A stretch of 64,000 nucleotides of DNA from Rikenellaceae bacterium (GTDB taxonomy: Bacteria; Bacteroidota; Bacteroidia; Bacteroidales; Rikenellaceae): positions 1 to 64,000 of the forward strand of contig SUZN01000007.1 in NCBI GenBank assembly GCA_015059905.1, read 5' to 3'. The notes beneath the pieces were generated by a model, which saw nothing but the letters and a program-made list of their open reading frames with translations, was not told the origin of the DNA and did not search any database. The translations under genes and the position numbers were made by a program. Shown here piece by piece: positions 8,834-38,267 of this stretch. Every line of letters begins with the position of its first letter. Position 1 is the stretch's first letter.

Positions 8834-8866
8834 TGCTATTGTTCGGCGGAGTAAAAATTTTCCTAA

Positions 8867-8894
8867 TTTTGAATTTTGAATTTTGAATTTTGAA
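8867..8894 (+). repeat. Heptamer tandem array (TTTTGAA) x4
   Basis: Four exact units, the reverse complement of the array at 2763. The array ends two bases before the -7 element of the ABC gene, so it occupies the spacer and -33 region; every unit supplies a TTTTG. Confidence 0.95.
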
Positions 8895-8895
8895 T

Positions 8896-8903
8896 TATCT
8901 TTG
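8896..8903 (+). promoter_or_regulatory. -7 element TATCTTTG directly before the LolD-like gene
   Basis: Perfect TAnnTTTG ending only four bases before the ATG at 8908, so the transcript would be leaderless or nearly so. The heptamer array supplies the -33 region. Confidence 0.65.
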
Positions 8904-33033: not shown

Positions 33034-34587
33034 CTACTCCTTGCGATCCTCTATAAACACTTGCCACAACATTGGAGAGTATGCCTGCACCTCGGATGTA
33101 ATCGTCGTGGTGGTTGTGGTATCGGTAGTATATGAGTTGTTATAGTAGTTATTGTAGTAATAGCTATCGTAATAATTGTTGTAGTAATCACCGTAGCCGT
33201 AACCATAACCACCATAACCGTAGTAATTATTATAATAGTTATTGTAGTAGTTATTACCGTAATAGCTGTTATAATAGTTGTAGTAGTTATAATAATCGAT
33301 GTAATCGTTGTAGTTCGACGATGATGACGAGCTTGATGAGCCCGACACTCCAGTTGCGCCGTAAGCATTTGACGAGCCTGTGAGGATTACATTCCACGCA
33401 CCAAGCTTCATATGTGGAATAGCATACTTCCAGGCATCAACATACGAGTTCTCGCCATCGACCGTAAAGTCCAGCGCCTCGTCCTCGCTTGTCAGCTCCT
33501 CGCCCGCATAGATAATCTCCTTAACCTCGCGGATGTTGGTATCGACAACAAAGCCATCCATCAGACGTGTCACATACCACACGCTTGCAGCATATACCGA
33601 GTCGATAGACTCCGCCTTCTCGGGCTTCTTGCCCTCGCCAAAGCGCTTGAGCAACACGGCATCAATCTCCTTGTTAATCTCATCGAGGCTCTTCGTGCCG
33701 TAAATCTTACCACGATTATATGCAGTCTGACCCTTATATAATAAGGTATCCTGACGCAAGCAGTCATAATTCAAACTCTTGCGGGGCGTATAGTTGTAGT
33801 TGATATAAAGTGCCGCGATTGAGTCCACCGCCAAACGCCACTTATCGTCATATGTCACCTTCTCGCCCTTCTCCAGACGCTCGTTCATCTTCGAGGCAGA
33901 CTCCTCGGCAGCCTTATCCTCGGCAACCAAACCGCCATTAGCCTCGGCAAAGGCCTTAATCCACTGGTCCTCATACGCCACAGGGTTGTTGATGTGACCC
34001 CACACCTGCAACTCCACAATCATAGGGCGGTTGGCATCCAACTCATACTGACCCTCATAACCGCCATCACCACCCATCGACTGGTCGCCCGCAGCGATTG
34101 ACGAAGGGAGATAAAGGCGCATCTTGGTGCCATAGCGCGCTGCATACTCCTTGCCGTGAATATTGAGTTTGTTACGGATTGACATATATGTACCCTCGGG
34201 CATTGAGGTGTTTGTCTCGCCACAATAGAGGAAGAATGGCACATAGTGAGTGTGGTCGGTGTAAGAGTTCTGCAAGCGTGCATATTCGTCGCTACGCGTC
34301 AAAACGATATTACCCGCCAGGTCGCGGCAAGTGACATCGAAACGCACCCACGCATCGCTATGACGCACAGGCAGACTGTCGGGACAACCCTCGTCGAGCA
34401 ACTCAACATAATATCCACCCATAGGCTGATAGCTATCCAGCAGGTCGGGACGGTTGTTCTCAATCCACGACTTCAAAGCGATAGACTCAATCTCCTCGAA
34501 ACTCATCTCGGTGCTATCAACACACGAAACAAACGAGAGCATCACCGATGCTACGAGCAAACAAAATATACGGTTTAGAAATTTCAT
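33034..34587 (-). CDS. FKBP-like lipoprotein with a Tyr/Asn-rich insertion in the C-terminal domain
   Basis: A 517-residue lipoprotein (signal MKFLNRIFCLLVASVMLSFVSC). The N-terminal half (about 25-205) is FKBP-like (DSYQPMGGYYVELL, SDAWVRFDVTCRDLAGNIV). A second FKBP-like domain starts at about 290 and contains YVDAWKYAIPHMKLGAWNVILTGSSNAYGATG, which aligns with the FKBP sequence ending AYGATG. Directly after it come eight Ser, then 62 residues with about 30 Tyr and 17 Asn plus Gly/Asp (425-486), then a Thr-rich stretch; the last FKBP strand then resumes as YSPMLWQVFIEDRKE (503-517). The insertion is thus in the loop that faces substrate in FKBPs. Catalytic activity is uncertain. Follows another FKBP-like gene by 27 bases. 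Confidence 0.82.
   Translation of the reverse strand: MKFLNRIFCLLVASVMLSFVSCVDSTEMSFEEIESIALKSWIENNRPDLLDSYQPMGGYYVELLDEGCPDSLPVRHSDAWVRFDVTCRDLAGNIVLTRSDEYARLQNSYTDHTHYVPFFLYCGETNTSMPEGTYMSIRNKLNIHGKEYAARYGTKMRLYLPSSIAAGDQSMGGDGGYEGQYELDANRPMIVELQVWGHINNPVAYEDQWIKAFAEANGGLVAEDKAAEESASKMNERLEKGEKVTYDDKWRLAVDSIAALYINYNYTPRKSLNYDCLRQDTLLYKGQTAYNRGKIYGTKSLDEINKEIDAVLLKRFGEGKKPEKAESIDSVYAASVWYVTRLMDGFVVDTNIREVKEIIYAGEELTSEDEALDFTVDGENSYVDAWKYAIPHMKLGAWNVILTGSSNAYGATGVSGSSSSSSSSNYNDYIDYYNYYNYYNSYYGNNYYNNYYNNYYGYGGYGYGYGDYYNNYYDSYYYNNYYNNSYTTDTTTTTTITSEVQAYSPMLWQVFIEDRKE
33130..33315 (-). repeat. Region coding for the Tyr/Asn-rich insertion
   Basis: Triplet-periodic sequence with mixed synonymous codons (TAT/TAC, AAT/AAC), so the repetition is kept at protein level and is not a pure microsatellite. 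Units are NNYY-like, with a central GYGGYGYGYG block. Confidence 0.85.
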
Positions 34588-34614: not shown

Positions 34615-35226
34615 TTATCTCTTTACCACCTTGTCGATGGTGTAAATCCACGCAACAGAGGTCTCCTTCTCAATCACACCCACAGCATCCTTGTCGTAGG
34701 CAGCCTCGTAGGTCATATACACCTCAACCTTATCACCCTCGCGGCAACCTAATAACGAGCGCTCAACGCCTTTTATTATATTGCTTTCGCCCAAATTCAA
34801 CACCAGCGGCTCCGCCACCCAATACTGGGTATTGAGCCCCTCTGCCGAGAGCGAGCTGATGATGCTTGCCTCATTGGTATAATATACCATCTTGAGCGAA
34901 GGCTGACTGCCGTTAAAGATGTAGGCTGTGAAGGTAAGCTCAACCATATCGCCCATCTCAACCTCCTCGCGCAAATCGCGGTCCTCGTCATAGTATGTAG
35001 CCACATAACGATATATGTCCTGGCTCAATTTCTCGTAAAACGGAGGGTTGTACTCAATCGAGTTGGGCACATCACTCTCGGCTATGAGGCGAGGCTGGTG
35101 CGATGAGGTAAGGAAACGCTCGATTGTGGTACGCTGCGACTCGATTTTAGTATCGTTGTCGTTGCATCCCACCACCGTCATCATCGCCGCCACTGCGAGC
35201 ATTGCCAATAGTGATTTCAATTTCAT
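34615..35226 (-). CDS. FKBP-like peptidyl-prolyl isomerase lipoprotein
   Basis: A 203-residue lipoprotein (signal MKLKSLLAMLAVAAMMTVVGC). The FKBP-like domain covers about residues 85-203: MGDMVELTFTAYIF at the start, NIIKGVERSLLGCREGDKVEVYMTYEAAYDKDAVGVIEKETSVAWIYTIDKVVK at the end, where AAYDKDAVG replaces the AYG loop. It may catalyse prolyl isomerisation in the envelope or act only as a chaperone. It is the first gene of a two-gene unit with the larger FKBP-like gene and has its own promoter. Confidence 0.82.
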   Translation of the reverse strand: MKLKSLLAMLAVAAMMTVVGCNDNDTKIESQRTTIERFLTSSHQPRLIAESDVPNSIEYNPPFYEKLSQDIYRYVATYYDEDRDLREEVEMGDMVELTFTAYIFNGSQPSLKMVYYTNEASIISSLSAEGLNTQYWVAEPLVLNLGESNIIKGVERSLLGCREGDKVEVYMTYEAAYDKDAVGVIEKETSVAWIYTIDKVVKR

Positions 35227-35438: not shown

Positions 35439-36788
35439 TCAATTGCCTCCATATATGATTCCACCCGAACTAACTCTCCAATTCTTGTCCAATGCAGTCT
35501 GAATCTCCTCTTCCGAGAGTTCATAATCATACTTAGCATTGGTTATATAGGCATACCACTTACCCTGCTCTTTACCTGTCCTGTTTGGCAATGAATTCAA
35601 CAAATCAACCAAACCTTCATACGGCAAATTGTTATAGTAAATATATAAACTCACCAACTCGGCACAATTGCTCACATCCAACGATGTCAGTTTATTACCA
35701 CCGCATATAAGTTGCACCATTTTCACACAATCGCTCACATCCAACGATGTCAGATAATTGTTTTGACAACAAATACGAAACATTTCCGCACAATTATCCA
35801 CATTAAATTCTGAAAGTTGATTATATTCACAATGGATCATAAACATCTTTGGGCTATTACTAAAGTCCAAAGATTTCAAATTATTATGCTCGCAGAAGAG
35901 TCTTGTCAGCTCCGTACACTTACTAAAATCCAACACACCAATCTTGTTATCTGTACAATGCAATTCTACCAATTTTGAGCAATCGCTTGTATCCAATACT
36001 GATATCTGATTTCTTCGACAATTAATTACTTTCAACTCTGGGCACTTGCTTATATCTAATTCAGACAGACCGCAATCGTCGCAGGAAAGATACTCTAACA
36101 AATTGTTTCTTGACACATCCAACTCCTTCAATTTAAGATCAGAGCAGTTCAGTTCCTTCAACTTACTATTTTTGGAAACTTCCAATTTTGTTATATCATT
36201 CAGATAGCATAAAAGATTTTCCAGTTCCGCATTTTGCGCTACATCCAACTCTGTAAGATTATTATCGTTACAACGCAAATATCGCAATGCAGAATTAGTG
36301 CTTACATCCAGTTCCGTCAACTGATTATATTCACACTCAAGACGCTCCAGCGCATAATTTTCACCAACATCCAGTGAAGTTAATTTATTATAACCACACT
36401 CGATATGTTTCAACGCGGGGTTATTACTAATGTCCAATGATGTAAGTTCGCTATGTTCACAATAGATATACTCAACATCGCCCTTGATATAAACTGTTTG
36501 ATCGGTAAGTACATAGAATACCAATGTGGTACCATAATTCATTGGATATTCTCCAATCTTTGTAGCACCAATAACCTCCGTTGGCAAACTTCCAGGCATA
36601 AATTCAAAGTCAAGTTTTTCGCCTACCTCCAGAGTGGTTACCAATTTCATATAAGGACCCTCGATATCCTCGTCCTGTCTCGTTTCCACTTCTGGTTGAA
36701 CGTCATCGATTTCATCAATATCATTTGACGACTCACTACAACTACACAATGCAAAGGCTGCAATAGCCCCAAATAATAACTTTCTCAT
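35439..36788 (-). CDS. Leucine-rich-repeat lipoprotein with 13 Cys-bearing repeats
   Basis: A 449-residue lipoprotein (signal MRKLLFGAIAAFALCSC). After a ~90-residue beta-rich N-terminal region come 13 contiguous repeats of exactly 21 residues, pattern LTsLDvSnNxxLxxLxCxxNx, covering about residues 113-385. Twelve of them have Cys at position 17; several later ones have a second Cys at position 9. A C-terminal cap of about 60 residues ends GGIIYGGN. Such proteins are surface binding proteins in gut Bacteroidota. The gene is AT-richer than its neighbours. A nine-G tract lies 93 bases upstream. Confidence 0.85.
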   Translation of the reverse strand: MRKLLFGAIAAFALCSCSESSNDIDEIDDVQPEVETRQDEDIEGPYMKLVTTLEVGEKLDFEFMPGSLPTEVIGATKIGEYPMNYGTTLVFYVLTDQTVYIKGDVEYIYCEHSELTSLDISNNPALKHIECGYNKLTSLDVGENYALERLECEYNQLTELDVSTNSALRYLRCNDNNLTELDVAQNAELENLLCYLNDITKLEVSKNSKLKELNCSDLKLKELDVSRNNLLEYLSCDDCGLSELDISKCPELKVINCRRNQISVLDTSDCSKLVELHCTDNKIGVLDFSKCTELTRLFCEHNNLKSLDFSNSPKMFMIHCEYNQLSEFNVDNCAEMFRICCQNNYLTSLDVSDCVKMVQLICGGNKLTSLDVSNCAELVSLYIYYNNLPYEGLVDLLNSLPNRTGKEQGKWYAYITNAKYDYELSEEEIQTALDKNWRVSSGGIIYGGN

Positions 36789-37655: not shown

Positions 37656-38267
37656 ATGAAGAAAATCTTTTTAAGCTTGATGGTTGCGGCTATGGCTATG
37701 ACATCTTGTCAGCAGAAGGCTGCAACAGAGACTACAACAGAGGGCGAAGTAGCTGCTACAGAGACAGTTGTTGAGGGCGACTTGGCATATGTGCGTGTAG
37801 ATTATGTTCTTGCCGAGAGCGAGATTTACAAGACTGAGGGTGTTGCATTGCAGGAGAAGACCGAGAAGGCACAGAAGTCTTGGGCACAGAAGGAGAAGAA
37901 CCTCCAGTATGAGGCTACACAGCTCCAGGAGAAGTATCAGAAGGGTCTTATCACAACTGCCGATGCACAGAAGCAGAGCCAGTCTATCGAGAAGCGTGCT
38001 ACAAACTTCCAGACAAACACACAGAAGGAGGCTCAGGCTTTGGACGAGGAGAACTTCGTATTCACCAACCGCACACAGGATTTGATTATGCGTGCTATCA
38101 AGGAGGTGAACGCTGACGGTAAGTACAAGATGGTTATCAACGCAACAGCATTGCTCGACGCTGCCGATGCTCTCGACATCAGCGAGACTGTTTTGGCAAA
38201 GGTGAACGAGCTCTACGCAAAGGAGAAGAACGAGAAGCCAGCAGAGGCTGAAGCAGAGAAGAAGTAA
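37656..38267 (+). CDS. OmpH/Skp-family periplasmic chaperone, lipoprotein form
   Basis: A 203-residue protein of the OmpH (Skp) family. Lipoprotein signal MKKIFLSLMVAAMAMTSC. A Thr/Glu-rich linker leads to LAYVRVDYVLAESEIYK, the first strand of the Skp body, then a long coiled coil rich in Lys/Gln/Glu (65-145) and the closing strand YKMVINATALLDAADALDISETVLAKVNELY. Skp binds unfolded outer-membrane proteins. Strong codon bias. Own promoter and terminator. Confidence 0.9.
   Translation: MKKIFLSLMVAAMAMTSCQQKAATETTTEGEVAATETVVEGDLAYVRVDYVLAESEIYKTEGVALQEKTEKAQKSWAQKEKNLQYEATQLQEKYQKGLITTADAQKQSQSIEKRATNFQTNTQKEAQALDEENFVFTNRTQDLIMRAIKEVNADGKYKMVINATALLDAADALDISETVLAKVNELYAKEKNEKPAEAEAEKK

Follow-up and report, generated by a model that had tools for sequence, protein, structure and literature searches.

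The Locus and Its FKBP-like Lipoproteins

The window, a stretch of 64,000 nucleotides from a Rikenellaceae bacterium, contains an open reading frame for a 517-aa lipoprotein in which a C-terminal FKBP-like domain is split by an insert rich in Tyr and Asn. The gene, its parts, and the neighbors relevant to its interpretation are as follows.

33034..34587, minus strand: two-FKBP-domain lipoprotein of 517 aa bearing the Tyr/Asn insert (open reading frame with ATG start)
34522..34587, minus strand: signal peptide and lipobox cysteine Cys22, followed by V-D-S-T-E-M (from the sequence)
33988..34455, minus strand: N-terminal FKBP-like domain, residues ~45-200
33052..33591, minus strand: C-terminal FKBP-like domain, residues ~333-512, split by the insert
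33316..33339, minus strand: Ser8 linker, residues 417-424 (script count)
33130..33315, minus strand: Tyr/Asn/Gly-rich insert, residues 425-486 (script count, low pLDDT)
33088..33129, minus strand: Thr-rich linker, residues 487-500, with 9 Thr (script count)
34615..35226, minus strand: probable operon partner, a 203-aa single-FKBP lipoprotein (C-N-D-N-D-T-K)
37656-38264, plus strand: Skp/OmpH-like lipoprotein of the OM-protein chaperone type (OmpH, 65.8 bits)

The AlphaFold model of the 517-aa protein (pTM 0.66) consists of two FKBP-like domains, and Foldseek matches it to multi-FKBP proteins with an E value of 4e-8. The FKBP_C profile gives 17.1 bits at residues 334-417, under its cutoff of 21.1, and the insert-free homologue L116 scores 66.6 bits against the same cutoff. 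An earlier note on this DNA had recognized an FKBP-like domain and had proposed structure prediction as a check, in which a different fold would have spoken against the assignment; the predicted fold is FKBP-like. That note was silent on the N-terminal FKBP-like domain and on the FKBP lipoprotein gene located 27 bp upstream. Tyr338, Asp349, Trp386, and Tyr409, which we take to be equivalent to Tyr26, Asp37, Trp59, and Tyr82 of the FKBP12 pocket, are invariant across 28 aligned sequences, as is Cys22, and the loop carrying the insert is likely to lie beside the putative active site of the C-terminal domain.

The insert comprises 62 residues, with 30 Tyr, 17 Asn, 7 Gly, 4 Asp, and 3 Ser by script count, and is situated between AYGATG (residues 408-413) and the last strand, YSPMLWQVFI (residues 503-512), with eight Ser before it and a Thr-rich run after it. 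The counts agree with those of the earlier note, and its coordinates and its placement of the insert hold; the strand is minus. If residues 1-416 set the expected share of Tyr (6.7%), the probability of at least 30 Tyr in 62 residues is 4e-19, and the next richest of the 134 stop-to-stop frames of at least 100 aa in the window reaches 11 Tyr per 62. In the AlphaFold model pLDDT is below 50 over residues 410-499, and the last strand is modeled after the insert at residues 506-512. The insert is thus predicted to be disordered. We regard the FKBP fold and the loop location of the insert as very well supported.

It has been reported that surface export of lipoproteins follows a rule of two acidic residues among the first six after the cysteine (PMC12578637). 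Both the 517-aa protein (C-V-D-S-T-E-M) and its partner (C-N-D-N-D-T-K) conform, and among homologues of the 517-aa protein the pattern is found in 63 of 91 genomes but only 41 of 107 database homologues. The arrangement with a second FKBP lipoprotein gene beside the first recurs in relatives as a two-gene unit. The gene for the Skp/OmpH-like lipoprotein is ~2.4 kb upstream of the pair; inspection by eye of four other genomes revealed such a gene near the pair in two (G089 L361 and G099 L364) and none in G087 and G038. Also upstream of the pair (35439-36788, minus strand) is a gene for a leucine-rich-repeat lipoprotein-like protein of the LDVSxNxxL type (LRR_4, 76 bits). Elsewhere in the window there are perfect 7-bp tandem repeats at 2762-2803 (AATTCAA x6) and 8865-8896 (AATTTTG x4.6), which are possible phase-variable sites.

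Distribution and Maintenance of the Insert

A profile search found the 517-aa protein in 139 of 150 Rikenellaceae genomes and in 11 of 198 genomes of the order, 2 of which are themselves Rikenellaceae. Seven of the 9 order matches outside the family read as two-domain proteins; those of G164 and G167 are short frames of 186 and 135 aa. Where records of relatives carry a name, it is mostly Alistipes or Rikenellaceae, and many come from animal-gut samples. A Tyr/Asn-rich insert occupies the same place in all 27 aligned homologues (44-87% identity), which were hand-chosen from 120 listed among 507 found, and is shorter in the distant ones. The earlier note had suggested that homologues with the Tyr/Asn region outside the loop would count against its proposal; in those aligned or printed the insert is again in this loop, after the AYG-type motif and ahead of the last strand, and in none of the homologues read is such a region found elsewhere.

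When an insert is defined by at least 16 Tyr in a 60-residue window, a line below which G097 (13 Tyr) and G037 (12 Tyr) fall, it is present in 49 of the 86 Rikenellaceae genomes read, a non-random sample drawn partly from the 30 top-scoring loci and partly hand-picked across genera, and in 49 of 93 genomes in all. (The insert categories tabulated alongside the BamA loop discussed below used a line of 12 Tyr instead.) By genus, the insert is found in 35/37 genomes of g1, 6/6 of g16, 1/1 of g17, 2/2 of g3, and 5/9 of g20, being weak in the other four g20 genomes; it occurs in none of 31 genomes from 16 other Rikenellaceae genera and in none of 7 outside the family. On a BamA tree its presence is patchy inside one Rikenellaceae group (58 tips, support 0.83). 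In G126, a g1 genome of 1.3 Mb, the homologue L127 is a 364-aa protein lacking the insert (6 Tyr per 60), probably through natural deletion. Four g9/g13 homologues (L111, L113, L125, and L126) lack the insert and have an extra C-terminal domain of ~110 residues of the VWITGYIVG type.

Such variability, including the loss in G126, the weak forms in g20, and a distance from AYGATG to the last strand that ranges from 66 to 105 residues across 30 homologues, would be expected of a functionless low-complexity expansion arising neutrally by replication slippage. The DNA encoding the insert, however, has no clean repeat: Tandem Repeats Finder reports two short arrays inside it with only 68-79% match. 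When 30 g1 genes were compared in 74 pairs, 1566 positions had Tyr in both members, 701 of them with differing codons, against 304 at which Tyr is opposed to another residue. Because Tyr is kept while TAT and TAC codons drift, the insert is maintained at the protein level and a slippage artifact is unlikely; together with the presence of the insert even in homologues of only 44% overall identity, this makes the neutral explanation very improbable.

The earlier note had inferred that the insert might mediate self-association, adhesion, or phase separation on the cell surface, which would leave the FKBP domain as a scaffold. An aromatic, low-complexity composition with little charge would suit this role, but it does not account for the invariance of the pocket-type residues or for the fixed place of the insert in that loop in the insert-bearing homologues read, and the gene is a single match in its genome within a recurrent two-gene unit rather than part of a variable surface array. 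No result of the analysis supports these activities as such, and we consider an adhesin or phase-separating protein improbable, if somewhat less so than slippage.

Possible Relationship to the PPI Lipoproteins of the BAM Dome

The dome of the Bacteroidota BAM complex was published in 2025; in Bacteroides thetaiotaomicron and Porphyromonas gingivalis it is extracellular and built from the surface lipoproteins BamH-K, of which BamJ and BamK are PPIs whose putative active sites face the interior (PMC12578637). The corresponding canopy of Flavobacterium johnsoniae includes BamM, which has an N-terminal PPI fold (PMC12611786).

The NCBIfam BamJ model (NF053689) matches all members of a set of 11 homologues, ten insert-free and one insert-bearing, although only L116 (103.9 bits) passes the cutoff of 100; BamM matches 3 of the same 11, at best with 54.7 bits, and BamK matches 1. 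The 517-aa protein itself scores 23.6 bits with BamJ, under the cutoff, and its partner 30.8-31.6 bits, and in one NCBIfam profile search the 517-aa protein gave no BamJ or BamM match. The cutoff of 315 for BamM (NF053691) is reached by neither the 517-aa protein nor the homologues scored. It should be noted that the BamJ model lacks specificity: another FKBP encoded in the genome of the 517-aa protein, signal-less by eye, scores 117 bits, and the model gives matches in 12 of 14 control genomes, over the cutoff in 3. The five best BamJ places in the genome are this signal-less FKBP, two FKBPs that are Mip-like by eye, and the FKBP gene pair. The 517-aa protein is consequently not a plain BamJ, being below the cutoff of a model that accepts a signal-less FKBP as well. 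Nor is it or its partner a BamK orthologue, since the best BamK score in the genome (NF053690, cutoff 120) is the 15.6 bits of the 203-aa partner.

Comparisons of fold lead to a similar neighborhood. A profile of the homologue set matches 9hjm_I (2e-12), 6h3i_B (5e-12), and 9his_I (4e-11), all ranked behind FKBPs of plants and other eukaryotes and behind Mips, and the PPI chain of the P. gingivalis BAM complex is a structural match for the models of both the 517-aa protein and its partner. The PPI of the type 9 secretion translocon and Mip-type FKBPs resemble the models in fold no less than the BAM PPI does. The B. thetaiotaomicron BamJ chain, 9his_I, is absent from the 50 structure matches listed for the models, which does not speak against a relationship. 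An accessory isomerase of the type 9 translocon might be considered on the grounds that its PPI (PDB 6h3i, chain B) is the top-ranked chain for the 517-aa model and the third-ranked for its partner, although other chains lie within the same range of ties. A difference may be the apparent lack of SprA, matched in 0 of 150 Rikenellaceae genomes in a search that was equally silent in every control genome, and a translocon role seems highly unlikely.

With respect to other dome components, the genome has one match to DUF4270 (110 bits), in a protein that hits BamH_fj with an E value of 4e-6 and 25.7 bits (cutoff 420); BamH might, we presume, be DUF4270, which would make this protein a BamH candidate. 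A BamI-type lipoprotein beside bamA was also considered, given that bt3725 and bt3727 are near in number in B. thetaiotaomicron (PMC12578637), but the bamA locus of G000 has no such gene by eye; bamA is accompanied there by one prenyltransferase-like and two Skp-like genes.

On the evidence of family and fold, the balance tilts slightly toward an association of the FKBP lipoprotein with BAM. An alternative that must be taken seriously, though we judge it rather unlikely, is a chaperone-isomerase lipoprotein that serves outer-membrane or surface proteins outside BAM, the insert being its own client tether and resembling the BamA loop through the binding of unfolded chains. The FKBP fold, the invariant pocket-type residues, and the Skp/OmpH-like gene ~2.4 kb upstream, with its counterparts in two of the four genomes, would all be compatible with such a protein; it leaves aside the BamJ/BamM family signal among the homologues and the fact that the insert is of the same sequence type as a loop sitting in the BAM dome.

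Comparison with BamA EL3 and a Proposed Role for the Insert

That loop is EL3 of BamA, which in the B. thetaiotaomicron and P. gingivalis work is described as having 38 residues including 13 Tyr, probably projects inside the BAM dome, and lacks density; its function was described by the authors as unclear, and its flexibility was judged to mean that it does not bind other components (PMC12578637). In B. vulgatus, 22 of the 44 residues of EL3 are Tyr and Asn, residues said to be rare in prokaryotic low-complexity regions (PMC8546649). The earlier note had called the insert unusual, which stands for an FKBP but not for the sequence type, which is known on Bacteroides-type BamA EL3 (PMC12578637, PMC8546649). 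What is already known is a Tyr-rich disordered element on BamA; what is new is its occurrence on an FKBP lipoprotein, and no paper in our literature search was recognized as describing such an insert.

Searched against PDB sequences, the insert matches, up to an E value of 10, only 9hj3 and 9hiv ("Outer membrane protein"), with E values of 0.07-0.10 that are not significant and constitute a lead from composition; the match lies at their YYNSSYFNNYYN... stretch. Their YYNSSYFNNYYNS... string is EL3 of the BamA L181 from genome G208. The composition of EL3 (Tyr 28%, Asn 13%, Gly 13%, Ser 15%) is close to that of the insert (37%, 15%, 14%, and 9%, respectively), Lys plus Arg accounts for no more than 1% in either, and all charged residues for 9% in EL3 and 6% in the insert. 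The tripeptide YYN is more frequent than in any of 300 shuffles in both the EL3 set (26 versus a mean of 12.0) and the insert set (174 versus 66.3). However, 16 of the top 25 tripeptides are shared between the two sets, against a shuffle mean of 14.6, and 131 of 500 shuffles reach 16. A likeness of motif beyond composition is accordingly rejected, and since sharing of tripeptides is no better than in shuffles, our claim is limited to composition and the enrichment of YYN.

BamA was matched in 145 of 150 Rikenellaceae genomes and 191 of 198 genomes of the order, and EL3 was read in 146 genomes, 70 within the family and 76 outside. It is short in all 70 Rikenellaceae BamA (31-35 residues in the aligned window, at most 6 Tyr), including 14 of 14 BamA read from the 16 insert-free Rikenellaceae genera; in the Alistipes-type BamA L002, for example, EL3 (from residue 541) is short and has no Tyr run. 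Outside the family EL3 is Tyr-rich, by a criterion of at least 9 Tyr in the aligned window, in 27 of 76 (52-101 residues, 9-27 Tyr) and not in 49; G281 (57 residues, 6 Tyr, Asn/Phe-rich), G178 (43 residues, 7 Tyr), and G254 (44 residues, 5 Tyr) fall under this line. The outside share is inflated because genomes were chosen for broken or weak BamA matches: 28 of the 76 were picked for broken or weak BLAST matches and 20 mostly for long frames, and 23 of the 27 Tyr-rich loops come from those 28, with 4 from the other 48. DNA patterns for Tyr-rich loops recovered at most 11 of the 27 known EL3 loops. In L179 and L180 (G221 and G324), EL3 has ~100 residues with tandem GYSPYG-type repeats and 22-27 Tyr.

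None of the 27 genomes with a Tyr-rich EL3 has a match to the 517-aa protein at an E value of 0.001, whereas 7 of the 49 other outside genomes do (Fisher p 0.046, in a count that is confounded by clade). A strict alternation of EL3 and insert is ruled out, as there are genomes in Rikenellaceae and in the order with neither loop, and for the same reason the Tyr-rich element must be dispensable. In a BamA tree built without EL3 from 145 of the 146 BamA (G004, which is partial, was omitted), all 27 Tyr-rich EL3 fall, with 5 others, in one 32-tip clade (support 0.999) apart from Rikenellaceae. Two independent gains of Tyr-rich EL3 are not indicated, given this single clade and a support of 0.439 for the branch separating G221 and G324. 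From this placement, the simplest reading is that the insert and the Tyr-rich EL3 arose separately in two clades; transfer between them is not claimed, and the contrast between the loops rests on few clades.

The best reading of these observations is that the 517-aa protein is the Alistipes counterpart of the isomerases of the BAM dome and that its active-site loop bears the element that Bacteroides-type species have on BamA. That it is a dome subunit of the Alistipes BAM in which the insert does the job of Bacteroides-type EL3 has, in our estimation, an even chance of being correct, and the proposal that insert and Tyr-rich EL3 share a function is equally balanced. In such a model the FKBP pair would be placed in the dome roughly as are BamJ and BamK, facing the interior, and the insert would hang from the rim of the active site into the chamber. 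Its Tyr residues may act as stickers separated by Asn/Gly/Ser spacers, with few charges, so as to make weak, multivalent, brief, and reversible contacts with clients, which would be β-strand edges and loops exposed on barrels and surface lipoproteins as they arrive. These contacts could slow misassembly while the FKBP pocket isomerizes prolines, a manner of holding clients that can be likened to that of FG-repeat meshes. The guess of the earlier note that the insert holds unfolded outer-membrane proteins comes close to this model. Since genomes with neither loop exist, the insert would be a tuning device as opposed to a core need. It is conceivable, and we offer it tentatively as the less probable generalization, that a disordered mesh rich in Tyr, Asn, and Gly counts among the movable parts of the extracellular BAM chamber of Bacteroidota. 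In this view a sticky brush with little charge would have been placed there at least two times on different subunits, on loop 3 of BamA in Bacteroides-type species and on the active-site loop of an FKBP dome lipoprotein in Alistipes and its kin, and the chamber would be a cage that holds clients, comparable to an FG-repeat pore but equipped with proline isomerases.

The similarly composed loop on a PPI-type lipoprotein, together with a short EL3 in the Rikenellaceae BamA read, amounts to a natural experiment on whether the loop has to be at a given place or simply somewhere within the chamber. A blank spot in cryo-EM would become a testable client-binding element in the assembly of barrels and lipoproteins in gut Bacteroidales. 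The finding may also bear on the bacteroidetocins. Sensitivity to these peptide toxins has been linked to an Asp with which BamA EL3 begins, and because sensitivity to bacteroidetocin A maps there (PMC8546649), the short Alistipes-type EL3 might influence sensitivity to the toxin.

Among known systems, EL3 of BamA, as described for B. thetaiotaomicron and P. gingivalis (PMC12578637) and for B. vulgatus (PMC8546649), resembles the insert in being rich in Tyr, Asn, Gly, and Ser, in extending over tens of residues, and in having almost no Lys or Arg. In both, YYN and GYG are frequent, ordered structure is neither seen nor predicted, and the element is a loop of an envelope protein-assembly factor, but EL3 connects strands 5 and 6 of the BamA barrel, whereas the insert is in a loop of an FKBP lipoprotein beside the likely active site. 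BamJ and BamK resemble the FKBP pair in being two PPI lipoproteins, the homologues match BamJ by profile, and the N-terminal domain of the 517-aa protein has the P. gingivalis BAM PPI chain among its fold matches; the BamJ and BamK models, however, have 184 and 199 positions, and BamJ has a single domain, as compared with 517 aa, two domains, and an insert. BamM is similar to the 517-aa protein in combining a PPI domain with a second domain on a surface lipoprotein, but its second domain binds calcium and is described as having no well-defined secondary structure (PMC12611786), whereas that of the 517-aa protein is FKBP-like.
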